Assembly (NCBI GenBank): GCA_022827345.1
Contig: JAJDTB010000062.1
Span: forward strand, 1-64,000
Source: Gemmatimonadota bacterium
Lineage (GTDB): Bacteria > Gemmatimonadota > Gemmatimonadetes > Longimicrobiales > Gaopeijiaceae
DNA: 64,000 nucleotides
Direction: 5' to 3'
Within the stretch, counting starts at the first letter, position 1; every line of letters starts with the position of its first letter. The translations under genes and the position numbers were made by a program. The notes under the pieces are model-generated. The model made no database searches. It had not been told where the DNA came from and was given only the letters and a program-made list of their open reading frames with translations. Shown one piece after another: positions 1,837-57,405 of the stretch.

Positions 1837-2328
1837 ATGAGACTGCGCTCGGTTGTGAGACTCATGCACGCCGCAATCGGACTGTCGGTCGGGGAGAATC
1901 TGTCTCTCGAGCGGGCGATCACCTACCTGGAGGGTGGAGCCAAAGCGTGGGTAAACAACCGCGGATGGTCGATTCGCTCTTTCGCTCAGCCCGAGGAGTG
2001 GGGCCGGGGCAACCGCGCGGAACGCCTGCGAGCCGAGGTGGACTTCGGCGACCCCGCGAGTGATGGCCACCAAACCGGTTTGGCCGTTGTAGTGCTGTCG
2101 TCCGCGGGGGTGCCGCCCACGCACCCGGCCGTGCAGCGCGGTCTCGATTGGCTCAGGCGGAACCAGAGACAATCGGGCCGCTGGTGGACCAGGTCACTCA
2201 ATACGGAGACATGGCACTTCATCACGTATACCGGGACGCTCTACCCGGTGATGGCTCTCGCGGTGACGAATTCTCTGGCGAGTCCCTCGTCCCAGGAGCG
2301 TTTGGGGAATCGCGTCGGCGGCCAATGA
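1837..2328 (+). CDS. Squalene-cyclase/prenyltransferase-repeat protein, C-terminal fragment
   Basis: 163 residues resembling the C-terminal repeats of the squalene cyclase / prenyltransferase alpha-alpha toroid: HPAVQRGLDWLRRNQRQSG followed by WWTRSLNTETWHFITYTGT. Full-length family members are several times longer, so this is the 3' part of a larger gene. The frame stays open back to a stop at 1690-1692 without ATG or GTG; ATG 1837 has a GAGGT five bases upstream and is a nominal start only. The stop overlaps the ATG of the Rieske oxygenase (ATGA), so the two were translationally coupled. A shared role in sterol or hopanoid metabolism is inferred from the pairing. Confidence 0.55.
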   Translation: MRLRSVVRLMHAAIGLSVGENLSLERAITYLEGGAKAWVNNRGWSIRSFAQPEEWGRGNRAERLRAEVDFGDPASDGHQTGLAVVVLSSAGVPPTHPAVQRGLDWLRRNQRQSGRWWTRSLNTETWHFITYTGTLYPVMALAVTNSLASPSSQERLGNRVGGQ

Positions 2329-3479
2329 GCTTCCTGACTCGCCGCTCGAAGCGCCGGGAGCCGCAATACTCCGACGACCTGCGTCTTGCCAACTATCCCC
2401 ATCCCTATCCCGACGGCTGGTACCGGCTGCTCCGCTCGAAGTCGCTGCGACGCGGGCAAGTGCGCTACCTGGAGTGCCTGGGCCGCGCACTTGTCGTCTG
2501 GCGCAGCGAAGCCGCGGACGCAGTATTCGCGATGTCAGCGTTCTGCCCTCACCTGGGCGCGAACCTCGCGGGCGGCCGCGTCTGCAAGGATCGCATCGAG
2601 TGTCCCTTTCACGGCTGGCAATTCACGGGCGACGGACGAGCGGCCCGTGTGCCCTACAGCGACACCGTGCCCACCCGCGTGGCGACCGAGAGCTTTCCCG
2701 TACAGGAGGTGCACGGGCAGATCTTCATGTATCACCGGAGTGGCGGAACTCCGCAGCAGGCGGGTGAGGAGGTTCCGTACCCGGTCCCCCGCATCCCGGA
2801 AGTCGATGACGGGATCTTCGTCTTTCGCGGACATTACGACGCCGGTCGCATCCGGATGCACATCATCGAGCCTATCGAGAATGCGGTCGACTCCGCGCAC
2901 TTCGGACACCTCCATAACCGGCTGACCGTGCCCTGGACGCAATTCCCGATTCCCCGCACGGCCATCGAATACACGTCGCGCCTGGACTTTGACGCCGCCC
3001 GGGGGGGCTACCGCATGCCGCTCCTCGTCGAGACCGTGTTCAACGTCGGCGGCCGTCGCATGGAAAGTACCAGGACAAAGACCCGAGTCATGTTCACGGG
3101 AGTCGGCAGCATCATGAACCTGAGGATCGAGTTGCCCAGGGTGGGCGTCGTGGAGATCGTGCAGACCTATCTGCCGATCGCACCACTTGACCAGCAGGTC
3201 GTCTTTCATTGGTTCGCCGAGCGCAGCGTCCCGCGACTTCTGGTCCGGGGCGCGGTCGGAGGCTGGGTCTCCCAGTGGCGCAACGATGTCCGCATCTGGG
3301 AGGAAAAAGCCTTCACGGCTCCCCCGATGCTCTGCCGCGACGACGGGCCCGTGATGCGTCTGCGGGACTGGTACCGACAGTTCTTTCCCCCCGGCGGGGA
3401 GGCGTCGCGGGACTACCCGAGGAGGCAATCCCCGGGGAGCTGCGCTGGAAGTTCGCCGAGCTCGCCATCGAGGCCGTGA
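2325..3479 (+). CDS. Rieske [2Fe-2S] oxygenase, DAF-36/cholesterol-7-desaturase-like
   Basis: 384 residues. The Rieske site is C74-x-H76 and C93-x2-H96 within CPHLGANLAGG and IECPFHGWQF, a pairing typical of the DAF-36/Neverland and KshA-like oxygenases that act on sterols. The mononuclear iron site follows as D189, H192 and H197 in AVDSAHFGHLH. The start at 2325 overlaps the upstream stop and is preferred over the longer in-frame extension to 2148, which is the shadow of the upstream gene. Known relatives desaturate or demethylate sterols using NAD(P)H reductase partners; none is visible here. The last ~27 residues are low-complexity (SSPSSPSRP) and a helix-like reading continues in the +1 frame, so a 3' frameshift is possible. 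Confidence 0.75.
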   Translation: MSFLTRRSKRREPQYSDDLRLANYPHPYPDGWYRLLRSKSLRRGQVRYLECLGRALVVWRSEAADAVFAMSAFCPHLGANLAGGRVCKDRIECPFHGWQFTGDGRAARVPYSDTVPTRVATESFPVQEVHGQIFMYHRSGGTPQQAGEEVPYPVPRIPEVDDGIFVFRGHYDAGRIRMHIIEPIENAVDSAHFGHLHNRLTVPWTQFPIPRTAIEYTSRLDFDAARGGYRMPLLVETVFNVGGRRMESTRTKTRVMFTGVGSIMNLRIELPRVGVVEIVQTYLPIAPLDQQVVFHWFAERSVPRLLVRGAVGGWVSQWRNDVRIWEEKAFTAPPMLCRDDGPVMRLRDWYRQFFPPGGEASRDYPRRQSPGSCAGSSPSSPSRP

Positions 3480-7811: not shown

Positions 7812-8519
7812 TCATACACCACCACATTCTCCACGTCCGATGATCGGGCGCGTCGGCCCCGACCGCTGCCGCGGCAAGTGGTCGTACGACGCGACCGTGT
7901 CCAGGGCACCGGTTTCGGTATCGAACAGGGTCATGTGCCCGGCGAGCCACTCCTCCTCTATGTCGACCCAGGAACGGTAGGGGTACCGGTCCATCATCAT
8001 CAGCTCACCGGATGAACCGATTCCCGCCAGACCGAAATGGGCTGCCCGTGGCAGGCGCGCGGTGCGCGCGACCGAATCGCCGACGAATAGAGTGAGGCGA
8101 GATTGACGACGGTCAGGCACAAGGACGCTGTCCCGGCCCAGGACGAACAGCGCGTCGGGCTCGATGACTTCTCCCGGTCCCTCTCCAACCCTGGCGAGCA
8201 CCTTGTGCGTCGTCCCGTCCGGACTCAGGACGACCACTTCGCTGTACCAATCGGCAACGACCGCACTTCCATCCGGGAAGAGCCGGCCGGCCTCGGCGAA
8301 CTGGAAGATGTAGTCGCCGCGGTTGGCGCCGTGGCGGTAGATGGGGTGTTCGGCGAGGGTGAAGAGGGGGTTGGTCTCGGGGACGCCGAGGTACTCGATG
8401 ATCTGGACGCCGGCGCTGTCGGTGGTTTGGACTTGGAGGTCGTGGGTGGGGTCGGTGGCTTCGCCGCAGGCGAGGAGGGCGGCGGACAGGATCAGGGGGG
8501 AAGAGGGTCTGGTTCGCAT
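7812..8519 (-). pseudogene. Truncated copy of the propeller lipoprotein
   Basis: 235 codons. After a diverged first ~70 residues the sequence is nearly identical to 4257-5450 up to TRPII, then ends in the unrelated octapeptide GRGECGGV. The DNA explains this: the sequence ACGTCC equivalent to 4291-4296 is joined at 7838/7839 to the sequence equivalent to 4770 onward, removing 473 bp relative to the first copy. As 473 is not a multiple of three, the end of the original gene is read out of frame. A signal peptide with lipobox LLAC is retained, so a truncated lipoprotein could still be made, lacking the last propeller blades. Confidence 0.8.
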
Positions 8520-8677
8520 TTGCCTTTGGACACCGATGGGATCGACGGCGTTTACAGGTACTTAGGCGCGAGAGGCGAATCGGGCCCGCCGTTGCGGCGT
8601 CGAACTGGGGCTCGGGAGTAGGTCGTGGCCACCGGTCGTATCTTCGACGGCAGTTCCTCGCGATTACTGAAACGCAA

Positions 8678-8710
8678 GAGCCCCGAGGACGGGAAACCGC
8701 CTCGGGGCTC
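8678..8710 (-). terminator. Strong hairpin, possible terminator
   Basis: A perfect 11-bp stem, GAGCCCCGAGG with CCTCGGGGCTC, encloses an inner CGG-GAAA-CCG stem with a GNRA-type tetraloop. Read on the minus strand it is followed by TTGCGTTTC, a weak T-rich tail, so it could end transcripts arriving from the DUF2971 gene. A related hairpin lies at 5613-5636 upstream of the other lipoprotein copy. Confidence 0.45.
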
Positions 8711-9075
8711 CTACCTCAGCGTCTTGCTGCGCCCGAAGGCTTCTGCAGTAGAGGACGATCTGAGGAATTACGCAGGGTCCGGGTTTCTCTCACCTCCCGA
8801 GCGGCGGAGGGCCCTCGGTATGGAGATGAGGGATTGGGAACGTAATGTCAAGCTGTCAATATGTAATGTTGTCTTCACACGGCCAAGCTCTCTACCGGAC
8901 TATGAGGTCGGTCCTACTTCGTTGGACAAGTGTCCTCATACCGTTGCGGAGTCCCGTCCGGCATTCGCCCGCCCGCGCCCGGGCGCGCTCCGGCCACTGG
9001 CGTGACGAATGATCCCCCGGACGCGCCACTCCCATGCGCCATTGGTAAGTCTCTGAGGCGGACGAATCACGGTTC
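8711..9075. other. Intergenic, no gene seen
   Basis: No supported coding region. A short stretch near 8840-8875 (TAATGTCAAGCTGTCAATATGTAATG) loosely recalls the centre of the dispersed repeat at 139-239 but cannot be aligned convincingly. Confidence 0.4.
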
Positions 9076-10224
9076 TTACGCGCCTCCGGCTTCGAGGTTT
9101 TCCGGCTCTCGATGGCTTGGCGGTGACTTGCGCCGGTGGACGGATGTGCTCGTTACCTGCAACCGGTACGCATGCCAGTGGGTATGCTTGAGGCGCCAAG
9201 TGCCCTGGCCAACATCCAGGATCCGACTGATTCTCCCGACCTGTTCCGTGGGCGTGTCGAAGCCGATATAGACCTCCGCCACCGCTTCCATCGGAAGCGC
9301 CAATGTATGGATTGGCCACGGAGAATCCCCGTTCGCGTTGAGCCGACAGGTGTGCAGATCGACCAGCAACCTCACCTCCTGCTCGTACTCCCAAGCCCGG
9401 CTCTTGACGAAAAGGAGCTTGGCCAATTGCCGGGAGTCGTTCGTCAGTTCAAGGAGTTCCACGTCGTGACTAATCAAGGGCGTACCTGACCGTTGTATAC
9501 CGCCTTCAGTGTCCTGTCGGCGATGCTCTTCATCGACGAAGCGAATCCGAATGACGTTGTCTCGTGTTGGAATGTAGACAGGTGCCAGTTCCAGATACAG
9601 CACGCGGCGAAGGTCGATCCCGAGATCACGTAGCATTTTGGTCTTGTAGCCCACGACGAACCCCGAGTTGCGCGCGTAGTGCGCCCACATCGTTGGGATC
9701 AGCGGGTCGGCTGAGAAGGACACGACGCCTACCGATTGGGAGAGGCGCTCCCTGATGATTGTAGAGACCTTCGGGTCGCCGTAGAGTCCCTTACGTCGCG
9801 CCAGCTCCTCGTCGGAGAGGGTGTCTTCGCCGAAGGCTTCGCGTAGCGACCGGGAGATAATGGTCCACCACTCGTCCCGATCCATCTTGTTCTCCATCGA
9901 CGTGGAGACATTGCCTTCCATGACATCGTTGAGCACTGCGGGTTGTGTGGCCCGAAGGGACATCGGGAATCCATCATTCAGCCGCTCGTGCGGCACGTAT
10001 TTGTAGATAATCTCGGGCAGTTCGACCATTTCCTGCATCGTCCGGGCGATCTGGCTCTTGTCAGTGATGTCTTTGAGGTGGAGCTGGAGAATGGCCCTCC
10101 GAGTTTCCTCGCGGCGGTGTGGGGGAAACGTCTTGATGAAGGCATCCACGCCGACGGGGTAGTCGCTGAGACGGTAGCTTGGGTAGCGGTCTCGCCTCGT
10201 GATTCCAGTTGGGTCTTCGGTCAT
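9076..10224 (-). CDS. DUF2971 domain protein
   Basis: 382 residues with the pattern of DUF2971: IIYKYVPHERLNDGFP near residue 72, VGVVSFSADPLIPTMWAHYARNSGFVVGY in the centre (first 20 residues conserved across the family), and LLFVKSRAWEYEQEVRLLVD in the C-terminal third. The biochemical role is unknown; relatives are common in defence islands and mobile regions. The start overlaps the stop of the small upstream gene (ATGA), giving a two-gene operon. It marks the left border of the defence island that runs to about 30.1 kb. Confidence 0.8.
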   Translation of the reverse strand: MTEDPTGITRRDRYPSYRLSDYPVGVDAFIKTFPPHRREETRRAILQLHLKDITDKSQIARTMQEMVELPEIIYKYVPHERLNDGFPMSLRATQPAVLNDVMEGNVSTSMENKMDRDEWWTIISRSLREAFGEDTLSDEELARRKGLYGDPKVSTIIRERLSQSVGVVSFSADPLIPTMWAHYARNSGFVVGYKTKMLRDLGIDLRRVLYLELAPVYIPTRDNVIRIRFVDEEHRRQDTEGGIQRSGTPLISHDVELLELTNDSRQLAKLLFVKSRAWEYEQEVRLLVDLHTCRLNANGDSPWPIHTLALPMEAVAEVYIGFDTPTEQVGRISRILDVGQGTWRLKHTHWHAYRLQVTSTSVHRRKSPPSHREPENLEAGGA

Positions 10225-14452: not shown

Positions 14453-17596
<3,144 letters not shown>

Positions 17597-17597
17597 G

Positions 17598-18569
17598 TCA
17601 CGAATCCGGCTCTCCGAGCTCATCAAAAGCAATCGACAGACCTTGAGCCACCTTCCCAACGAGTTGGAGAAGGTCACGTACCTCGTCTGGTTCGATATGA
17701 ATCCTCCGACCGACGACCGCCTCTCTGTCCGCCGCCTTGGCGAGGTAGGCTTGATCCACGACTCCCATTCTGTGCGCGATGAGATGGCGCCTCTGAAAAG
17801 CGCGAACGAGCGATTGCCATTCACAGGCAGTCAGTGCGGAAGACAAGTTTATGCCATAAGCTCGTCGCAGGCGCCTCTTCGCTCCTTCAAGGTCCTGGAA
17901 ACTAATCCTGCCCACGATGGCGCGATTGGTCGCGCTCCTCGTGTAGACTCGGCACAGTTCGCGCGCGAAGCCGTCGAAGACCGACACGCAATCCTCCAAC
18001 CCGTTCTCGACGAGCCTCCGAGAAACGTCTCTCTCGGTGCTCTCTGCCAAGTCCATCATCTTTGCTACAACTTCGATGTTCTTCTCGAAGATCTGGAGCG
18101 AATTGTGTTGGCCGCAGTCGGGACAGAACGCAAAAACACCGTAGATGGAGTAGCGAAGTGTACAACTGGTACAGACCACCTCGGTCTCGAGCTGCTTTTC
18201 CCTGTAATGGCGGATCGGCAGCGGACCTTCGGGTTTGAACGTCAATGACAGCCCGATTCCGAATGGCCCTTTCGGCTCCACGTTGAACTCCATCTCCTTG
18301 AGATCCCTGTGGATTGCTTCTGTGATCTCCCGCGTCACCACGGACTCGACATACTTGACCTGCTCTTTGGTCCAGAAGTGGTCATGCGCCGCAGTATGGC
18401 CGCAGTACGGGCAGTGGCACGGAAGGTCTCTTCCCTCAAGCCCAGTACCGAGTTCGATCTTGAAGTATCCCTCGCAGTCCGAGTGGGGACACTCACGGCC
18501 CGTGAAGCCATCTTCATCGGGTTTGATTGGGATCGAAATGCGATTGCCAAGTTTGCTGAGGTGACTCAT
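17598..18569 (-). CDS. Zinc-ribbon and HEPN-motif protein inside the type I RM operon
   Basis: 323 residues of no named family. Two zinc-finger-like clusters are visible: C27, C32, C53, C56 ([10 protein letters not shown] and CHCPYCGH) and C133, C136, C149, C152 (VVCTSC and FCPDCG). The C-terminal ~150 residues are helical and contain R261-x4-H266 ([10 protein letters not shown]), the catalytic signature of HEPN RNases. The ATG overlaps the hsdS stop (ATGA) and its stop abuts the hsdR start, so it is produced with the restriction complex. PrrC, another HEPN RNase, is guarded by a type I RM system in E. coli; an analogous sensor-effector role is my inference. Alternatively it may simply regulate or chaperone HsdR. 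Confidence 0.7.
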
Positions 18570-20215
18570 CGGTCGGTCATCCCCAGAGTCCATGCCGTCT
18601 GGCCCAACCGTATCTCGCCCGAGATGAGCTTGGGCAGGAGAGTGTCCCGGAGGGCGGCAAGGGTGCGGGATTGATGACCCCCGTTGCTCGCTCTCTTGAT
18701 GAGCGACCCAGCAACTTCTCCGAACCGTGCGGCCACCCGGCTTGGCGGCACGACCATCGGGAATTCTCGCAGCGCGATTGGCGATACCCGCTGGCGGCCG
18801 CTCGTGCCGCTCATGTTCTGGATCGCGAATTCGCGAAACCTGGCACTCCGAGCGAGGCAGTACGCGAATTGATTCGGGAGCGGGGGCTGCGGCCTGAGGA
18901 CGATGTACTCCGTAGAGCCCCATCCAACCTCGTCGTCGGTCAAGAAGTCCACGTAGGCCGTCTTGCCGTTCTCAAGGCACGGTGTGATCCGGGCAACAAG
19001 CGTATCGCCGTTAGCAAACCGCATGCCGGACCCGAAGGGTCGAACCGCGACGGCATCCGGCATGTGACCCCGGGTGGGCATATCGGCCATCGGGAGATAG
19101 GGAGCGGTCTGTCCCTTTCGAAGAAATCGTCTCGGGTTGACGTCGATGCGTTCCGCCAAAGTCGTAACCTGCCACCCCTCCGGTATCTCACCCATCTCGG
19201 AATCCACCAGCCGGTCAGGGAACAGGTCAGCGATGTCTTGCGGCAAGCCCGCGTCCCGGCCTTGCATGTTGGCCCGCACCGGATCGAAATCGACGAACCA
19301 GGACTTGAACAGTGCCCGTGCCGTTGCCTCCAGCGTCTCGTTCATACGCCGGTCAAACTCGATCTTGTCGTCCAAGGTGCCGAGCATGTAAGCGATAGTG
19401 CGTTGCTCGCGCAAGGAAGGGAGACGGATGAACTCAGAATCGAGGAAAAACTCGAACTGAAAGTTGCTGATGCCTGTTGACTGTTGTTCGTATAACGAAG
19501 CGCGGCCCGACAGGTACATCTCTTGGAGGGTGTAATACGCGTATCGCGTATCGACGACATCGGGATTGAATCGGACAAGACGACAAAAGCTCGCGGGGAT
19601 TACGTCCTGTCCCAACTCCGTGAGCACTCGTTCTGAGACGAAAAAGCTCCGGCCCGTCAACTGATTGCTAGTTCGGCTGCCACCGGAAATCTCCAGAAGA
19701 CTATCGCCCGCCCTCAGCCTGCGCCGACCCACTCTAAACGCCGTCTCGTAGCGCGCCGGAACTCCCGAGAACTCGCCATTCCGAATCCGACTGAAGTCCG
19801 TCCCACGGATAACGCGAACGGGTACCGAGTCTTCGAACTCCGTTTCCTTGCCCCAACCCCCTCCTATCGCGAACTCCAGGATCTCGCGAACGGTTGCACC
19901 CGCTACTTGTTGTGGACCCGCATACCACTCGACGCCTTCCTTACGAATGTGCTTCCGCAGGGTTGGGTCCTGGATCGAATTGTACAGCAGCAGATCCACC
20001 GTCTGCGCCATCGGGATCTTCTCGATCGCCGAAGTCAAGCGCGCCTGATCCGTCAACGTCAGCCGGTCGCCGAACAACGCGATGTCCACGTCGGAGGTCA
20101 CGGTGTTCGTCCCGGTAGCCCTGGATCCGAACAGCACGGCCCGCTTGACGCGGTCATTGGCCGCGATCACGGCGATGATCGCCTCTCGGTGCGCGTCCTT
20201 GAGGCCGTCCGTCAT
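18566..20215 (-). CDS. hsdS: MntA-type nucleotidyltransferase fused to type I specificity subunit HsdS
   Basis: 549 residues in two parts. Residues 1-~100 are a minimal nucleotidyltransferase: G30-S31-x10-D42-x-D44 (LFGSRATGTNTVTSDVDIAL) and a third acidic residue in QTVDLLLY (D74), all intact. Residues ~105-540 are HsdS: first target-recognition domain, conserved central repeat (TLEATARALFKSWFVDFDPV), second recognition domain and C-terminal repeat (TLAALRDTLLPKLISGEI). In HepT/MntA systems MntA AMPylates the HEPN toxin to silence it. Here the antitoxin is physically joined to the DNA-recognition subunit, and the toxin gene immediately precedes it with an ATGA overlap. Downstream also ATGA-coupled. 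Confidence 0.88.
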   Translation of the reverse strand: MTDGLKDAHREAIIAVIAANDRVKRAVLFGSRATGTNTVTSDVDIALFGDRLTLTDQARLTSAIEKIPMAQTVDLLLYNSIQDPTLRKHIRKEGVEWYAGPQQVAGATVREILEFAIGGGWGKETEFEDSVPVRVIRGTDFSRIRNGEFSGVPARYETAFRVGRRRLRAGDSLLEISGGSRTSNQLTGRSFFVSERVLTELGQDVIPASFCRLVRFNPDVVDTRYAYYTLQEMYLSGRASLYEQQSTGISNFQFEFFLDSEFIRLPSLREQRTIAYMLGTLDDKIEFDRRMNETLEATARALFKSWFVDFDPVRANMQGRDAGLPQDIADLFPDRLVDSEMGEIPEGWQVTTLAERIDVNPRRFLRKGQTAPYLPMADMPTRGHMPDAVAVRPFGSGMRFANGDTLVARITPCLENGKTAYVDFLTDDEVGWGSTEYIVLRPQPPLPNQFAYCLARSARFREFAIQNMSGTSGRQRVSPIALREFPMVVPPSRVAARFGEVAGSLIKRASNGGHQSRTLAALRDTLLPKLISGEIRLGQTAWTLGMTDR

Positions 20216-20621
20216 GGCGTTCGCCTCGCGTCCAGCGTCCGGTGGAGTCGCAGCAGGACAGGGTGGTAGCGTTCCTTGATAAGCGTCTCCGCCTCCTCGG
20301 CCACATCGAGCAAATAGGCATGGCTCAGGAGGTTGCGCTTGTCCAGCGCGTCGAGGAGGGTCTCGCAGTCGCTCTCGTCGATGTAGTCCACCTCGAAGCT
20401 CTTGCGGATCACCGCGCGAGGGACCTTCACGTCATGGCCCTCGTAGAAGAGGAGATCCTTGAGCACCTTCCAGGACAGCTCGAAACTGAACTCGAACGTC
20501 TTGATCAGCCCGGCCAGTTCCAGGTAGTCGTACCCTTCCCGGTCACAGGCGTTCGTGAGTTGGGCGAGCGCGGTCCCGAAAGTGTCGAGCCGCTGCTGCC
20601 AGCGCCGTTCATCCGCATTAC

Positions 20622-20625
<4 letters not shown>
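20212..20625 (-). CDS. HepT-like HEPN toxin (nucleotidyltransferase partner)
   Basis: 137 residues of the HI0074 / HepT group. The diagnostic motif R97-x4-H102-x-Y104 ([10 protein letters not shown]) is intact: Arg and His form the RNase site and the Tyr is the residue AMPylated by MntA in the Shewanella system. The upstream part ([20 protein letters not shown]) is the conserved helix of nucleotidyltransferase-substrate-binding proteins. The gene overlaps hsdM upstream and the MntA-HsdS fusion downstream, each by ATGA, so toxin and antitoxin are made at a fixed ratio with the RM subunits. RNase activity and AMPylation are predicted from the motif. Confidence 0.85.
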
Positions 20626-22202
<1,577 letters not shown>

Positions 22203-22445
22203 TGGGATCGCCTGTCCGCAGCGAAAAGATACGATAGGGCACGGGTCCCCGTACACCACTCAGCCGAGGCTAACCCCCCTGCCCCCCCGGGTCAGCTTGC
22301 GGGCGGAATATCGGACAACCCATCCCAACGGTTTGGGTGTTCACGCTACAGGATGACAGCGATAGCACCGGCACCAACGGGCAGGATCGGGTCACGCCCG
22401 CCGACCCTTACGCAACTCTTGCCCCGACCTCCGAGGGAGGAATCA

Positions 22446-51716: not shown

Positions 51717-52433
51717 CTACCAGTCGACCTTGTCCGGTTCCGGTCGATAGCGTGCGATTCCGTCGCGGGTCAGCCTGAAGGCAGCGGCCATCACCAATGC
51801 GCTCGACAGAAGAATGGCCGATGCCAGGATCGCGGGTCCCGAATCTCGAGCCACCAGATCGGTGACAACGTCCAGCGGACTACCGAACAACCGATCGAAT
51901 ACCCACAGGACTCCGAACAGCACGACAAATGGGACCAACAGGCCGATGCTGGCCAGTCGCGTCACCGTGTAGCGCATCGTCAGCCCGATAAGCAGCCAGG
52001 AAGCGGCGGACGAGCTGAACCAAACCAGAGGATAGGCAACGATCACGACCCGAAGCGCCGGGGTATCGAGCAGCGGCGGGAGCACGATGCCGCACGCGGC
52101 AGTCACGAAGATCGCGCCCAGGGCCGTCAACCCGCTGGCCGCCGCGCAGCGCGCCAACGCGAGACTCGGTGGAGTCGCCGGGAGACCGGCGAGGAACTCC
52201 ATCGTGCCGTCCAGCTTGTCCTTCAGGACATGCATCGCGCTCATGCCCACGAAGCTCAGCCCGACGGCGACCGCAATGAACCCCACGGCACTTGAATCGA
52301 AACCGGCCAGCGCAACCACACCGACCGCCGCGAGCGCCCCTCCCAGGGTGTGCAGCACCTGCTTGCGCACGCGTCGGAATTCCAGCCCCAACAGACTGCC
52401 GACGATACGACGCGGGGAGATGAGTCTATTCAT
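51717..52433 (-). CDS. ABC transporter permease of the peptide cluster
   Basis: 238 residues with six predicted membrane segments (TLGGALAAVGVVALAGF; VGFIAVAVGLSFVGMSAMHV; TALGAIFVTAACGIVLPPLL; LVPFVVLFGVLWVFDRLFG and others). The middle motif KDKLDGTMEFLAGLPATP is typical of ABC-2 type permeases. It overlaps the ATPase gene by 8 bp and is the last gene of the C39/small-peptide cluster. ABC-2 pairs in bacteriocin clusters often give immunity or export. Confidence 0.78.
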   Translation of the reverse strand: MNRLISPRRIVGSLLGLEFRRVRKQVLHTLGGALAAVGVVALAGFDSSAVGFIAVAVGLSFVGMSAMHVLKDKLDGTMEFLAGLPATPPSLALARCAAASGLTALGAIFVTAACGIVLPPLLDTPALRVVIVAYPLVWFSSSAASWLLIGLTMRYTVTRLASIGLLVPFVVLFGVLWVFDRLFGSPLDVVTDLVARDSGPAILASAILLSSALVMAAAFRLTRDGIARYRPEPDKVDW

Positions 52434-53163
52434 CTGTGGATCTCAGCAGGGTGTAGAGTTTCCTGGACATCGGCGTTGCGGGGTCGCGCGCGTCCACATC
52501 CGCAGCCGACATGTCGGCCACCAAGCGACCGTCCCTCAGGAGGACGACGCGATCGGCAAAGCGCTCGACATCCTCGAGGATATGGGTCGAGTAGAGGACA
52601 AGACGTTTGCCGCCGGCGGGAGCGGACTCGTTGATGACCTGCAGGAGTTCGCCACGCATCACGGGATCGATGGACGATGTGGGTTCGTCGAGGACGAGAA
52701 CGGGTGGACGGAATGCCTCGGCAGCGACGAGGGAGAGCTTGACGGCCATCCCCTTCGAGAGAGTTCCGACCCGGGAAAGGAGCGGCAGCTGCAGGCGCTC
52801 CGCGAGGTCGGCGGCGTGTGCATCATCCCAGGTGGGGTAGAAGTTCGACAGGAACCGCAGGTGTTCGCCCACGGTCAGCCACCCGTACCCCAGCAGGCGC
52901 TCCGGCAGGAATCCGATACTTGCCCGGATCGCCGGCAGATTCGATCGGACTTCCGTCCCCCCCACGGTGACGGTACCTCGATAGTCGTTCATCCTCCCGG
53001 CCATGGCCTTCAGGAGGGTGCTCTTCCCCGCTCCGTTCGCACCGACCAGTGCGACCCGCTCTCCCGGGTGGAGATCCAGACTCAGGGGACCAAGGGTGAA
53101 GTTGGGGTATTCGACCCTGAGGTCCCGCACACTGACCTCCGGCCTCGTTTCAGCCGGTTTCAC
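52426..53163 (-). CDS. ABC transporter ATPase of the peptide cluster
   Basis: 245 residues from GTG 53163 (GTGA overlap with the upstream stop). Walker A is VGANGAGKST, the signature is LSKGMAVKLSL (degenerate LSGGQ), and Walker B is VLVLDEPTSSID, then STHILEDVER. The 25-kDa CcmA/BcrA-type ATPase works with the downstream permease. Its likely job is self-protection against, or release of, the peptides encoded upstream; inference from context. Confidence 0.88.
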   Translation of the reverse strand: MKPAETRPEVSVRDLRVEYPNFTLGPLSLDLHPGERVALVGANGAGKSTLLKAMAGRMNDYRGTVTVGGTEVRSNLPAIRASIGFLPERLLGYGWLTVGEHLRFLSNFYPTWDDAHAADLAERLQLPLLSRVGTLSKGMAVKLSLVAAEAFRPPVLVLDEPTSSIDPVMRGELLQVINESAPAGGKRLVLYSTHILEDVERFADRVVLLRDGRLVADMSAADVDARDPATPMSRKLYTLLRSTDE

Positions 53164-53837
53164 AGCGTCACCTGGGCCCGAACGGCCGCGAACGCCAGTA
53201 CGGCTGCCCACATGAGGCAGGCCAGACCGACCGCTCTCGCCCGGCTGAATCCGAAGCAGTGGCGGAACGCTGCGGTCAGGAAAAGGAACCACGCCAGGTG
53301 GAACAGCGTGACGGACTGCGCCACCGCCCACAGAACCGGCATGGTGGGAGGCACGATCGCCCCCAGGCCCAGGGGGAGCTGCAAGTCCTGAGGCGACGAT
53401 ACGACGCCCCCCGTGGTGAGATGCACCAAAAGAACAACTGCCACACCCTGGAACATCAGAATCGCCTCTCCGTACAGTAGCACCGAGACGAGCGGCCTTA
53501 TCCGGCTGTCGACACCGCCGAGGGTCAGGGCGGCCCACCCAACCGCAGTCAGGAGCAGGGCCTTGAGCAACATCAGAAGCGGCGCGATCAGCGCGGCAAA
53601 CACGAGCACGAGCTGGACGGTCGACGATGCACCAGGCTGTTCACCGCCCAGGGCGCGCAGGAGCAGCGGCCGCGAAGCGACCGCAGCCACGACCGAGAAC
53701 ACCCAGCCCGCGACCAGCGGAGGGAAGACGGGCTCATGCCTCCTGATGTCATCAAGGCCCGGTACCAGAAGGGCGAGGAAGCGCCTGATCCGGCCCCAGC
53801 CCGTGGGCCGCGGCGGGTCGATCACCATTTCATTCAT
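53160..53837 (-). CDS. YIP1-like membrane protein
   Basis: 225 residues with about five to six membrane segments (VAGWVFSVVAAVASRPLLL; LVLVFAALIAPLLMLLKALL; AVGLACLMWAAVLAFAAVRA). The pattern of a cytoplasmic N-terminus followed by a five-helix bundle resembles Yip1-domain proteins. It is ATGA-coupled to the thioredoxin-like gene and GTGA-coupled to the ATPase. YIP1-like genes occur next to ABC ATPases in many bacteria; the function is unknown. Confidence 0.65.
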   Translation of the reverse strand: MNEMVIDPPRPTGWGRIRRFLALLVPGLDDIRRHEPVFPPLVAGWVFSVVAAVASRPLLLRALGGEQPGASSTVQLVLVFAALIAPLLMLLKALLLTAVGWAALTLGGVDSRIRPLVSVLLYGEAILMFQGVAVVLLVHLTTGGVVSSPQDLQLPLGLGAIVPPTMPVLWAVAQSVTLFHLAWFLFLTAAFRHCFGFSRARAVGLACLMWAAVLAFAAVRAQVTL

Positions 53838-54376
53838 TGTTCTGATTCATCTCCGGTAATGGTCTGTATGTTGTTGATCAGCCTCCGCCTGCTGCTCTGT
53901 CCGACCTCGACGATGCGGACCGTATCCGTGGCGTCGATCCAGAAGGCGGCGGGCACCGCGTTGACTCCCAGCATTCGTCCTGCGCTGCCGTCCGGATCCT
54001 GCACCGTTCGCGCGCGGAGAGGCTCGGGCACCCATTGTGCACCCTCCATTTCCGAGGTGGGTGACGCGACCACCCAGACCCTCTCCGCAAAACCATGCTC
54101 GGGAGCCAGGGCTTCCCACTGATCCAGTTCGGCCCGGCAGTACACGCACTCACGATCCACGTAGAGAAGGACCGCCGGAGACCCTTTCATTTCCTCCAGG
54201 CTCCCGGGGCCTCCCCCGACCTGTACAACGGTCAGGGGAGGCAACGGCCAGGGAGGCTGCCGCGGGCCGGAACCGGCCCGATTCCCATTCGCCAGGAGCA
54301 CCGGCAGCAGCGCGGCCGCGGCGGCGCACGCAGCCACAAGCACGGCCGCAACCCTGCGCGGAACTGCTACGTGCAT
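53834..54376 (-). CDS. Membrane-anchored thioredoxin-fold protein
   Basis: 180 residues from ATG 54376. One N-terminal membrane segment (AAVLVAACAAAAALLPVLLA) is followed by a redoxin domain with C77-x2-C80 (VLLYVDRECVYCRAELDQW), RVWVVASPTSEMEGAQWV and the cis-Pro-type loop LGVNAVPAAFWID. In this cluster, which encodes several two- and four-cysteine peptides, it is probably the oxidase or isomerase for their disulfides. The start lies 10 bp inside the upstream peptide gene. Confidence 0.75.
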   Translation of the reverse strand: MHVAVPRRVAAVLVAACAAAAALLPVLLANGNRAGSGPRQPPWPLPPLTVVQVGGGPGSLEEMKGSPAVLLYVDRECVYCRAELDQWEALAPEHGFAERVWVVASPTSEMEGAQWVPEPLRARTVQDPDGSAGRMLGVNAVPAAFWIDATDTVRIVEVGQSSRRRLINNIQTITGDESEQ

Positions 54377-54636
54377 GCCAGCACGCGCGCGTAGAAAGTA
54401 AGGCCGGGATAGGCGGGACCGCCCGCGACACAATCGAGCCACGTGATGACCCGGACCGCCGACCCGACGAATTCGAGCAACTGGCCGCCGGAGGGATCGC
54501 TCGCGACGGTCTGCCGATGCACCTCCTGGACGGTGGCCTCGCGGGGACGGGCCGTCGGCGGTGCAAGAACGGCTGCGCATGACACTGCCACTGCCAGCCG
54601 CATGGCAAGGGCTCGGTGAAAGATCGCTGTGGGCAT
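54367..54636 (-). CDS. Secreted two-cysteine peptide (precursor-like)
   Basis: 89 residues from ATG 54636. A signal-like segment (MRLAVAVSCAAVLAPP) leads to a hydrophilic stretch and then SDPSGGQLLEFVGSAVRVIT, WLDCVAGGPAYPGLTFYARV and LACT. The GGQ and the pair of cysteines 18 residues apart recall the next two peptides (GGQ, cysteines 20 apart). Processing after GG by the C39 peptidase would release about 43 residues. The family is unknown. Confidence 0.5.
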   Translation of the reverse strand: MPTAIFHRALAMRLAVAVSCAAVLAPPTARPREATVQEVHRQTVASDPSGGQLLEFVGSAVRVITWLDCVAGGPAYPGLTFYARVLACT

Positions 54637-54649
54637 CGTCACACCGCCG

Positions 54650-54937
54650 CTAGCCAAGGGTGCCGAGGAGCACGCCGCCGCAAACGGGAACGGCGAAGAT
54701 GAGCGCGAGCGGCATCACAAAGGAGAGGCCGGCGAGTCCAATGCAGAGATAGACATCCTCCGCCGCCTGGCCTCCCACGACATGCGTCGCGTCGACGACC
54801 TGAATCGACTCGGCGACGTGATCGGTGTCGCCCCACGCCGAACCGCCATGTCCCAGCAGCGAAGCGTTGATGATGGACAGAGCTGCCAGGGTTGCCATGG
54901 CAGAACGGATTTTCGTTGATCCTGAGAATTTCTTCAT
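54650..54937 (-). CDS. Secreted bacteriocin-like peptide, GGQ family member 1
   Basis: 95 residues from ATG 54937. The N-terminus is signal-like (SAMATLAALSIINASLLGHG); a linker ends in VVDATHVVGG; then QAAEDVYLCIGLAGLSFVMP and LALIFAVPVCGGVLLGTLG. The two cysteines are 20 residues apart in a very hydrophobic, Gly-rich tail. It is a clear paralogue of 54943-55215 (A-L-S-x-x-N-A-x-x-L-G-H and VVGGQ shared). GG before Q is a candidate C39 cleavage site, giving a 39-residue peptide. Confidence 0.65.
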   Translation of the reverse strand: MKKFSGSTKIRSAMATLAALSIINASLLGHGGSAWGDTDHVAESIQVVDATHVVGGQAAEDVYLCIGLAGLSFVMPLALIFAVPVCGGVLLGTLG

Positions 54938-54942
54938 TTTGG

Positions 54943-55215
54943 TTACCCCCAAGTCCGTACTACGGCCGAGTAGCACGACATTGCTGCAAATACTCCCATG
55001 AACGGAAAGAAGTGGGCGCCGACGCCCGAAACGACGCAGGTCACCCAGTCAATTCCCTGGCCTCCGACCACATCGGGGCCAGTTCGTGTTTCTGCCTGGT
55101 ATGCGACGGGTGCGCCAGTACCCGTCCCCTGCATCTCGTGTCCGAGGTACAGGGCGTTCGACAGCGAGAGCGCCGCTACCAGGCACAGCACTCGCCGATT
55201 CAATCTTGAAGTCAT
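54943..55215 (-). CDS. Secreted bacteriocin-like peptide, GGQ family member 2
   Basis: 90 residues from ATG 55215, with AGGAGG 4 bp upstream. Signal-like segment VLCLVAALSLSNALYLGHEM, linker ending TGPDVVGG, then QGIDWVTCVVSGVGAHFFPF and MGVFAAMSCYSAVVRTWG. The cysteines are 20 residues apart, as in the previous peptide. Cleavage after GG would leave 38 residues. The gene ends 5 bp before the start of the next gene on the same strand. Confidence 0.68.
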   Translation of the reverse strand: MTSRLNRRVLCLVAALSLSNALYLGHEMQGTGTGAPVAYQAETRTGPDVVGGQGIDWVTCVVSGVGAHFFPFMGVFAAMSCYSAVVRTWG

Positions 55216-55259: not shown

Positions 55260-55559
55260 CTATGAAAAGCCAACGGTGCATGCACCGACGCAGGCTCCGA
55301 GTAGGGCGCCGTTTGCGCCCGCGAGCACAAGAAGACCGATCACCGACGACCCGCCCCCCACGATTGCGCCGGCCGCGCACCCCGCGCAGATGAGCTTGGC
55401 CAACCAGGGACCCGTTCCGACGACCGCTTCCGTCACAGGCGTGGCCGGCGGGGTTGCCGAAGCGGAGCCTGCTGCGACCTGACCGCCGATGGCGGCGGCC
55501 GGAACGGCGATCAGCGCGAGAATACCCGCAATGGTTCGCACTACTGACTGCTTTTTCAT
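55260..55559 (-). CDS. Secreted four-cysteine Gly/Ala-rich peptide 1
   Basis: 99 residues from ATG 55559. Signal peptide (AGILALIAVPAAAIGGQVAA), linker to VTEAVVGTGPW, then LAKLICAGCAAGAIVGGGSS and VLAGANGALLGACVGACTVG. The cysteines are C-x2-C, 28 residues, C-x3-C, the same plan as 55610-55894. The hydrophobic glycine-rich core is typical of pore-forming bacteriocins; halocin C8 is a distant analogue in style only. A 15-bp tandem duplication (GAAGGAACGAACAAT twice) copies the ribosome-binding site and start, so an alternative ATG at 55574 exists. Confidence 0.65.
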   Translation of the reverse strand: MKKQSVVRTIAGILALIAVPAAAIGGQVAAGSASATPPATPVTEAVVGTGPWLAKLICAGCAAGAIVGGGSSVIGLLVLAGANGALLGACVGACTVGFS

Positions 55560-55609
55560 TGTTCGTTCCTTCATTGTTCGTTCCTTCTCCCTGTTGCAGG
55601 GGTCGATGA

Positions 55610-55894
55610 TCACAGGTTTGCACACGCTGCTATGCATCCTGCGAGGGCCAGCGAAGACCCGGGAACCGACGCTGCCGCAACGACGGCACCCCAGCCCCCG
55701 GCGGCGATACCGATCCCGGCCACGAGACATCCCACGCAGGCTGCAAACGTCTTCCAGCCAGTCCCGGTGACGTCCTCTGCCGCTGCCGGTGGTTCGCCGG
55801 TCCCGAAGGATGCGCCCGGCTGTGCTGCGCTGTGCATCCCCAGGACGGCGAGACACAATCCGAGGGTAAGAACCCTCATGTTAGATCGAAGCAT
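55610..55894 (-). CDS. Secreted four-cysteine Gly/Ala-rich peptide 2
   Basis: 94 residues from ATG 55894 with GGAGG 5 bp upstream. Signal peptide (VLTLGLCLAVLGMHSAAQPG), then EDVTGTGWKTFAACVGCLVA, a Gly/Ala-rich core and SSLALAGCIAACANL. The cysteine plan is C-x2-C, 30 residues, C-x3-C, matching 55260-55559, and both share G-T-G-x-W/K before the first cysteine. The start lies 14 bp inside the C39 peptidase gene, so it is the first peptide of the operon. Confidence 0.68.
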   Translation of the reverse strand: MLRSNMRVLTLGLCLAVLGMHSAAQPGASFGTGEPPAAAEDVTGTGWKTFAACVGCLVAGIGIAAGGWGAVVAAASVPGSSLALAGCIAACANL

Positions 55895-56552
55895 TTTTCC
55901 TCCAATGATGGTGCTTGAGCCCATGGCGCAGTTCGCCACGGGAGATCCGCTCCTGTCCGGCCAGCAGCACGGCTTCGCCGGACCAGATGGATCTGAAGTC
56001 CTGTTCGCTGATCGTGTAGCGACCCACGCGCGGGTCGATGACCGTGATGGTCCCGGTGGGACTCAGGTCCGTCACTGTGACGAAATGATTGCGGTTGACC
56101 CATGCGATGAACGGTCTCGGAGTGGCGGCGACCTGCTCCGGGGCGATGTGCTCCAGGGTCATCGGCAGCCCGAAGACCGCGCCGGCCCGAATGAGCCCGC
56201 TGGCTCTGGTCCCGACCGGGCCGGTGCCCGCAAGCGTGGCCAGCGAGTCCAGCGATGGGGCATCGATGCCGACGGCGTGCAACAGGTTCGCCAGGGCCGC
56301 GGGCCCGCAGTCGTTGAGGGTGGCCTGCAGGACCACGCCTTCCGCTCCGAGATACGAGCCCCCGAGATCGGTCAACTCCTGCCGGGCGGCGATTCTGCCC
56401 ATGCGCGGCAGTTCCGTGACTGCGAACGCCGCGATTCCGATGGTGGCCGGAACCAGCACCAGTACCGCCAGCGCACCCAGTCGACGGACTGCGGAAGGGT
56501 GCCGGAAGAACGCCTTGCGAGGATTTGTGGAGCCGGACCGACGTGCGATCAT
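55881..56552 (-). CDS. Membrane-anchored C39-family peptidase
   Basis: 223 residues from ATG 56552 (TTG 56591 is an in-frame alternative). One N-terminal membrane segment (ALAVLVLVPATIGIAAFAVT) is followed by a papain-like C39 domain: Q76 and C82 in LQATLNDCGPAALANLL, H156 in AWVNRNHFVTV and D173 in TVIDPRVGRYT. C39 peptidases cut bacteriocin leaders after double glycine; usually they are fused to an ABC exporter, whereas this one is free-standing and faces the periplasm. As first gene of the cluster it is the likely processing enzyme for the downstream peptides. Confidence 0.8.
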   Translation of the reverse strand: MIARRSGSTNPRKAFFRHPSAVRRLGALAVLVLVPATIGIAAFAVTELPRMGRIAARQELTDLGGSYLGAEGVVLQATLNDCGPAALANLLHAVGIDAPSLDSLATLAGTGPVGTRASGLIRAGAVFGLPMTLEHIAPEQVAATPRPFIAWVNRNHFVTVTDLSPTGTITVIDPRVGRYTISEQDFRSIWSGEAVLLAGQERISRGELRHGLKHHHWRKNASI

Positions 56553-56705: not shown

Positions 56706-57326
56706 CTACAAGGTCATCAGCACCGCCAGGATGTCCTCGTTGGTGGGCCGCACGCGGTAGTCGACCTCGACGAAGCTGTATCGGACGACCCCCTCCCTGT
56801 CGATGACGTAGGTCGCCGGGTGCGGCAGCGGCCTGTTCGGGGGTGCATCCTCGTTGAAGAGGCCGTAGCGGTCGATCACCCGGTGGTCCGGATCCGACAG
56901 CATGATAAAGTCGGGCGTCACGCCGTCATCAGCAGCGACTCGGTCGATCATCAGCTGCATGCCTTCGCGGTCGTCCACCGACACCGTCACGATCTCCGTG
57001 TCGTCCTGCAGTTGGTCGGGAAGAAGGGCTCTCAGCTCCACGAGCTGACTGGCGCAGTACGGTCACCAGTGGCCGCGGTAGAAGACCAGGACGACGTTCT
57101 TCTCGCCCCGGAAGCCGGCGAGGTCCACCGCCCCGTGCTCGAAGGATTCGAGGGTGAAGAGCGGCGCTTCAGTGCCAATCGCCACACGCCCGATATCGGT
57201 GGGGGGCAGGTCGTGGCCGTCCACGGGACCCAGCGTCTGGGCGGCGGCGGGCGCGGATGCGAAGAGGCCGGCAAGCAGCAGCGGCAGGATGCCGGCGCGG
57301 ACCGGCGATCTTGGAGAGCGTTTCAT
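56706..57326 (-). CDS. Peroxiredoxin-like protein with predicted selenocysteine (UxxC)
   Basis: 206 residues if the TGA at 57063-57065 is read as selenocysteine (residue 88). Before it: a signal peptide (AGILPLLLAGLFASAPAAAQ), then APLFTLESFEHGAVDLAGFR and VLVFYRGHW. After it, in the same frame: PYCASQLVELRALLPDQLQ, then TEIVTVSVDDREGMQLMIDR and LSDPDHRVIDRYGLFNEDAP. Relatives have C-P-Y-C at this place, so the TGA replaces the first catalytic Cys. A hairpin right after the TGA (57032-57048) fits a bacterial SECIS. A nonsense mutation is the alternative, but the frame beyond is intact and well conserved in pattern. Predicted periplasmic thiol peroxidase or oxidoreductase. Confidence 0.75.
57032..57048 (-). 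promoter_or_regulatory. Candidate bacterial SECIS element
   Basis: In the mRNA of the peroxiredoxin-like gene, U-CAGCUC pairs with GAGCUG-A (7 bp) around a three-base loop GUG. The loop begins 21 nt after the UGA and its first base is G, which agrees with the general bacterial SECIS model (loop 16-37 nt downstream with G in the first two loop positions). Confidence 0.55.
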
Positions 57327-57405
57327 GGGGGCCGTTTCGTGAGCGGGCGGGGGGATGATGTCTCGGCAGTACACCGGCGAGGCGGCTTGACGATATGTTA
57401 ACGGC

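Follow-up and report, generated by a model that had tools for sequence, protein, structure and literature searches.

C39 proteases normally form the cytoplasmic front end of peptide exporters. C39 peptidases are encoded in the loci of class IIb two-peptide bacteriocins, in which two small, adjacent, glycine-rich hydrophobic peptides each carry a leader that ends at a glycine motif. The Bacillus SDP cannibalism toxin derives from a Sec-exported precursor, which is processed to a hydrophobic peptide of about 42 residues containing a disulfide. Among Gram-negative bacteria, a pair of small hydrophobic glycine-rich proteins makes up the contact-dependent glycine-zipper bacteriocin CdzC/CdzD of Caulobacter, for which the small membrane protein CdzI provides immunity (PMC5380434, excerpt). 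Stand-alone C39 proteases outside a transporter are represented by FapD, for which a periplasmic location is experimentally supported (PMC5557850, excerpt), and by NapP, which is encoded beside several small GG peptides and is proposed to cut them in the periplasm; NapF of the same system is FapF-like (PMC11798529, excerpt). The glycocins sublancin, glycocin F, and orniglycocin contain two nested disulfides, and C39 protease and thioredoxin-like genes are found in their clusters (PMC12457901, excerpt). The parts of the operon described here each have precedents among two-peptide bacteriocins, periplasmic C39 proteases, and nested-disulfide glycocins, but their combination matches none of the systems compared. 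A literature search retrieved no paper describing such a C39-A-B operon by title or abstract.

The operon is located on the minus strand of a 64 kb stretch of Gemmatimonadota DNA, which was analyzed as a whole and is referred to as the window. Its first gene (55884..56552) encodes a C39 peptidase that stands alone, has a single N-terminal transmembrane helix, and lacks ABC domains (PF03412, E 6.7e-21); the start codon is uncertain, and the open reading frame extends up to 56591. Two precursors follow, which were identified by ORF translation, alignment, pattern scan, and profile search: peptide A (55613..55894, 94 amino acids) with a Sec-type leader, a DVTGTG motif, and a CVGC-x30-CIAAC core, and peptide B (55263..55559, 99 amino acids) with a Sec-type leader, a VVGTG motif, and a CAGC-x28-CVGAC core. 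Three related precursors with hydrophobic two-cysteine cores are encoded just downstream. Peptide C (54946..55215, DVVGGQ motif) and peptide D (54653..54937, HVVGGQ motif) were recognized from ORF and motif; similar two-cysteine VVGGQ peptides are present in the locus of genome G018, where D has a tblastn match (E 2.4e-4). Peptide E (54370..54636, PSGGQ motif) is the weakest of the five, since it was read from ORF and motif only and no homologue of it was found. Neither these three peptides nor the surrounding operon appeared in the first-pass annotation of this DNA.

The peptide genes are followed by a gene for a membrane-anchored thioredoxin/TlpA-like protein with a CVYC motif (53837..54376; PF00578, 31.1 bits against a cut-off of 26, computed on the longer ORF 53837–54580). 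The next gene encodes a multi-span membrane protein, which is Yip1-like by a score below the Pfam cut-off (53163..53837; PF04893, 16.9 bits, cut-off 28.6) and by its conserved position. The ATPase of an ABC transporter (52429..53163; PF00005, E 3.7e-26) resembles models of the PmtA, GldA, and drrA types, the nearest NCBIfam model being that of the phenol-soluble modulin exporter ATPase PmtA (NF047565, E 4.9e-37, under the model cut-off). The last gene encodes an ABC-2 type permease-like protein (51720..52433; PF13346, 18.6 bits, under the Pfam cut-off of 25), whose position is likewise conserved. From the C39 gene to the permease gene, neighbors overlap or are separated by gaps of at most about 50 bp, and the arrangement is therefore operon-like. 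The five small proteins share one plan: a signal-like N-terminus and a spacer lead to a glycine motif (VTGTG, VVGTG, VVGGQ, VVGGQ, and PSGGQ in A to E), behind which lies a hydrophobic core whose cysteines are located toward its two ends, four of them in A and B and two in C, D, and E.

The first-pass annotation had read A and B as Gly/Ala-rich paralogues with a selected disulfide framework around a hydrophobic hairpin, as would suit a membrane-active pair, and had named the conservation of the cysteine spacing among homologues as the decisive comparison. The two sequences and their spacers of 30 and 28 residues are as it described. When both strands of the window were scanned in all frames for C-x2-C, 15–45 non-cysteine residues, and C-x3-C near the stop codon, two matches were obtained, namely peptides A and B, both with at least 90% hydrophobic or small residues and a glycine motif upstream. 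In 100 dinucleotide shuffles, a mean of 0.15 matches of any kind and no hydrophobic match occurred, which rules out the pattern as an accident of GC-rich sequence. The four cysteines and their spacing are invariant in 12 of 12 aligned A and 13 of 13 aligned B relatives from different genera and families; in the A alignment, G-x-G and G-S are invariant, too. Profile–profile comparison with hhalign aligned A with B including the cysteines (probability 84%, E 7e-6, 21% identity), which identifies them at the sequence level as remote paralogues. Across the whole peptide, dN was lower than dS in all 13 orthologue pairs computed, the individual values being rough for such short sequences. The invariant cysteines and the low dN of orthologues bear out the claim of a selected framework.

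To place the operon in a wider context, the C39 protein was used as a query against 121 genomes of its GTDB family and 395 genomes sampled from the phylum. The searches separated ordinary C39-ABC fusions (open frames of 600 amino acids and more) from a stand-alone, transmembrane-anchored subfamily present at 21 loci, the window included. In agreement with the proposed pairing, A is directly followed by B at every one of these Gemmatimonadota loci. Together they encode 59 four-cysteine peptides with the exact spacing, two to six per locus; a glycine motif lies within 22 residues upstream of the core in 58 of them, and 55 have a signal-like start. The A copy of G037, possibly affected by a frameshift, has no readable leader and was kept in the count. 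Searched against the 395 phylum genomes, the A profile gave strong matches (E ≤ 3e-7) in 20 genomes, always beside a stand-alone C39 gene, and the B profile was found in 18 of these at E ≤ 1.5e-8; B was seen in the remaining two, G185 and G170, by the pattern scan only. Most of the weaker A-profile matches corresponded to additional peptides or to B copies at loci already identified. Those in G122, G137, G189, G289, G296, and G297 (E 3.8e-4 to 6.1e-3) were regarded as noise, as were weak B-profile matches in G214 and G330. The named records available for 13 loci are Gemmatimonadota, several of them labeled Longimicrobiales.

The conserved gene order, with the A/B pair as its core, is C39, A, B, optional extra peptides, thioredoxin-like protein with CxxC, Yip1-like protein, ABC ATPase, and permease. 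Among the 20 loci other than the window, a thioredoxin-like gene encoding CxxC lies 3′ of the peptides in 17 and the ABC ATPase, always further downstream, in 19; matches to the Yip1-like and permease-like proteins are weaker, but their positions are fixed. The three loci without a thioredoxin match are that of G017, where the contig ends, and the two most divergent loci (G185 and G170), in which neither a thioredoxin nor a Yip1 homologue was detected by tblastn. Five control loci with other C39 genes yielded a single pattern match, which is not strongly hydrophobic (fraction 0.79, L108). Other stand-alone C39 genes of the phylum (G290, G310, G055, and G088) are not accompanied by an A/B pair and were left out of the family, and no call was possible for G249, whose gene is located at a contig end. 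A TAG codon inside six of the C39 matches was considered as a case of recoding; according to the sequences, it is the normal stop codon of a shorter protein. Downstream of C39 in G037 (L046), two further peptides with a common leader and different CxxC…CxxC cores display a third cysteine plan.

The C39 protein has the features of its family, since the catalytic Cys82, His156, and Asp173 and the oxyanion Gln76 are invariant in 12 of 12 aligned sequences and align with those of PCAT1. The profile matches the PCAT1 C39 domain (4ry2) with an E-value of 1.8e-17 and also ComA and 6mpz, the LahT-type double-glycine protease domain of an AMS/PCAT transporter. In all 12 sequences, basic residues at the N-terminus come before a hydrophobic segment, and the positive-inside rule would accordingly place the peptidase domain outside the inner membrane. 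Such an outward-facing protease and the Sec-type leaders of its putative substrates would together give a coherent route of Sec export followed by periplasmic cleavage, a biogenesis that appears well supported by the anatomy of the predicted proteins. The first-pass annotation had pointed out a G-T-G just before the first cysteine block of A and B. Its position is as described; it presumably belongs to a V-x-G-x-[G/Q] motif that ends the Sec-type leader as the C39 recognition site, and it is most likely removed with the leader rather than part of the mature framework. Many members have GT, GR, GQ, or GN in place of a canonical double glycine. A G-x cleavage site is possible, since cleavage at Gly-Lys is described for the C39 domain of a glycocin cluster (PMC12457901, excerpt).

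AlphaFold2 models of both cores are all-helical, with helices at residues 2–19, 22–30, and 34–47 in A (pLDDT 73.5, pTM 0.40) and at 2–17, 23–32, and 34–48 in B (pLDDT 74.4, pTM 0.42). The C-x2-C block is located on the first and the C-x3-C block on the last helix; the models, of moderate confidence and low pTM, are compatible with the hydrophobic hairpin suggested in the first-pass annotation. A nested clamp of C1-C4 and C2-C3 on this hairpin would be geometrically reasonable. The net charge of the 59 four-cysteine cores ranges from −4 to +3 and is mostly 0 or −1. GxxxG occurs once in the A core and four times in the B core of the window, and overall in only 36 of the 59 cores.

Comparison with reference collections gave no assignment for the peptides. 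In Pfam and NCBIfam, the 12 A and 13 B members had no meaningful match, none at curated cut-offs for the first members, and A and B did not match the bacteriocin families therein. Scattered weak library matches of single members (best E 0.0038, to a synthase model) were dismissed. PADLOC returned no match for the window peptides A, B, C, and D. Profile searches of the PDB gave no meaningful match for A or B (weak B matches at E 0.018 and 0.9 were dismissed), and a Foldseek search with the A model gave no match there either. B was not matched in the plasmid collection, and a plasmid origin was rejected.

With the class IIb bacteriocins, the operon shares the two adjacent hydrophobic peptides, the leaders ending at a glycine motif, and the C39 gene in the locus. 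It differs in that the leader begins with a Sec-type signal, the C39 protease is separate and predicted to face outward instead of being part of a C39-ABC exporter, and the cores are neutral rather than cationic and carry four invariant cysteines each. The likeness to SDP lies in the Sec-exported precursor and the short hydrophobic disulfide peptide, whereas SDP has other processing proteins, its own immunity protein, and a single peptide. The pair of small hydrophobic glycine-rich proteins is reminiscent of CdzC/CdzD, and the stand-alone C39 protease of FapD and NapP; in contrast to the Fap and Nap systems, the substrates here are of a four-cysteine hairpin type, and genes for a thioredoxin-like protein and an ABC transporter are present in addition. 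The cysteine positions and helical models of A and B are compatible with nested disulfides as in glycocins. Unlike in glycocin clusters, the C39 protease is not fused to an ABC transporter and there are two partner peptides; no glycosyltransferase was found among the operon proteins scanned with Pfam and NCBIfam.

Judged from these sequence features, the operon probably makes bacteriocin-like, disulfide-stapled hydrophobic peptides, which would be exported by Sec, trimmed by the C39 protease, and act on membranes as an A+B pair. A, B, and the optional extras would be made as precursors of about 95–110 amino acids with a Sec-type signal, a low-complexity propeptide, and V-x-G-x-[G/Q] before the core, an anatomy that can be read from the translations. 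The Sec pathway would carry them across the inner membrane, where the anchored, outward-facing C39 protease may cut off the propeptide at the glycine motif and release neutral Gly/Ala-rich peptides of about 45–50 amino acids. The thioredoxin-like CxxC protein may aid in forming or proofreading the nested disulfides C1-C4 and C2-C3, which would clamp the ends of the helical hairpin, and C, D, and E would each receive one disulfide. The final step is the least certain. In it, A and B may jointly attack the membranes of competing or sibling cells in the manner of two-peptide bacteriocins, and the ABC ATPase, permease, and Yip1-like protein may expel the peptides from the producer membrane, serving immunity, release, or both. 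The exporter Pmt transports phenol-soluble modulins, and its raised expression accompanies nisin resistance (PMC8535901, excerpt). A killing activity of A and B is inferred. Among the features that speak against a bacteriocin are the near-neutral cores, which are unlike typical cationic antimicrobial peptides, the motif, which is often not GG, the missing thioredoxin and Yip1 matches at the two most divergent loci, and the modest confidence of the models. In the same direction, neither an outer-membrane exit channel nor a homologue of a known immunity protein was detected among the operon proteins scanned with Pfam and NCBIfam.

Instead of acting on membranes, A and B might be structural or aggregating surface peptides of a fiber or envelope layer, with the C39 protease in the role that FapD has in the functional amyloid system of Pseudomonas. 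FapD is Sec-exported to the periplasm and its active-site cysteine is needed for secretion (PMC5557850, excerpt), and aggregation is possible for hydrophobic cores rich in Gly/Ala, with CdzC as an example (PMC5380434, excerpt). A Pfam scan of 10 window proteins, however, revealed no FapF/NapF-type channel, the cores are devoid of Asn/Gln-rich repeats, and invariant paired cysteines in combination with diversifying paralogue cores suit toxins better than fiber subunits, so that we regard this explanation as unlikely. Peptides directed against the producer itself, for lysis or programmed death rather than as weapons against competitors, have been proposed for the gonococcal Nap island, in which a C39 peptidase is accompanied by several small GG peptides that promoted autolysis and caused no inhibition of the bacteria tested (PMC11798529, excerpt). 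A comparable role is distinctly unlikely here: the Nap peptides are cationic and their island includes an outer-membrane channel gene, whereas the present peptides are neutral and their operon encodes an ABC transporter of a protective or export type.

If A and B were pheromones that related cells detect, the ABC transporter would serve for their import or sensing; this would be in line with the role of C39 enzymes in pheromone maturation, for which the ComA matches are an example. A secreted signal of this kind is nevertheless very unlikely, given that the cores are long and very hydrophobic, that up to six different peptides are encoded per locus, and that no regulator or kinase was present among the conserved neighbors looked for. 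CxxC and CxxxC are able to ligate metals, and membrane peptides binding, for example, zinc or an iron–sulfur cluster through four cysteines would do without disulfides. The Sec-type leaders, the outward-facing protease, and the CxxC thioredoxin-like neighbor argue for disulfides, and the cores of C, D, and E contain only two cysteines, which renders metal binding highly improbable.

Returning to disulfide-stapled bacteriocin-like peptides as the preferred reading, the C39 protease here appears to act after Sec export. If so, a single pathway combines Sec export with the maturation of double-glycine peptides, and genome mining for C39-ABC fusions alone misses such systems. It would also provide the Gemmatimonadota, a little-studied phylum for which the literature search yielded no report of such a bacteriocin, with a testable antagonism system in which variable cores are borne by an invariant cysteine scaffold. 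Tentatively, the operon might represent an undescribed class of Gram-negative multi-peptide bacteriocins, characterized by Sec-exported precursors, a periplasmic anchored C39 protease cutting at V-x-G-x-[G/Q], thioredoxin-aided nested-disulfide hairpins, a fixed A+B pair with lineage-specific diversifying extras, a swappable slot in Gemmatimonadota, and a related plan in Neomarinimicrobiota. The latter refers to a Neomarinimicrobiota locus (L067, around 8001–10000), in which a stand-alone C39 gene is followed by genes for two precursors, whose near-identical leaders end in YDVDGSGW and YDVVGGDY. From these sequences, the plan of Sec export plus C39 cleavage may extend beyond the phylum. The first of the two precursors looks truncated after CVASEQ.

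The diversification of extra peptides is most evident in G036, which encodes three additional paralogues with leaders of 88%–93% and cores of 38%–50% identity. In these cores, dN (0.41–0.61) exceeds dS (0.26–0.53), although the alignment of such cores is uncertain; together with the highly similar leaders, this fits a set of toxins undergoing diversification.

Within the genus, the operon is located between a redoxin gene and a gene that we take to encode an M28-type peptidase. Seven of the 23 congeneric genomes carry the operon, in one case with the flanking genes on different contigs. In six, the flanking genes are only 156–338 bp apart, leaving no room for it, and in another seven the site is occupied by other DNA of about 3–15.5 kb. 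In the remaining three, the flanking genes are on different contigs and the operon was not detected. The chromosomal slot is thus variable. Such a distribution would be expected for accessory weapons, although other accessory functions behave likewise.

In four genomes, the same slot contains a different cassette of an ABC transporter and small secreted cysteine-rich precursors of about 109–126 amino acids (L139, L140, L141, and L142 in G014, G033, G031, and G027, respectively), with two different precursors at three of the loci and one at the fourth. This cassette may be another peptide export system. In G020 (L143), the slot holds about 15 kb of other genes including, as judged by eye, a helicase-like and a large ATPase-like ORF, possibly a defense island. 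In the closest congener (G023, L145, near 1846–3069), an ORF judged by eye to be tyrosine-integrase-like is located beside the redoxin gene, which suggests that the slot is used by mobile elements.

Elsewhere in the window, a cluster at 14453–22259 on the minus strand is type I restriction-modification-like, with a large helicase-like, a specificity-like, and a methyltransferase-like ORF recognized by eye from the ORF list. The redoxin gene directly upstream of the operon (56709–57341, minus strand) contains an in-frame TGA at about 57063–57065 in the context FYRGHW-TGA-PYC. TGA is found at this codon in every locus where the motif was found, and SelA is present in the genome; judged by its sequence, the redoxin is very probably a selenoprotein (GHWUPYC).
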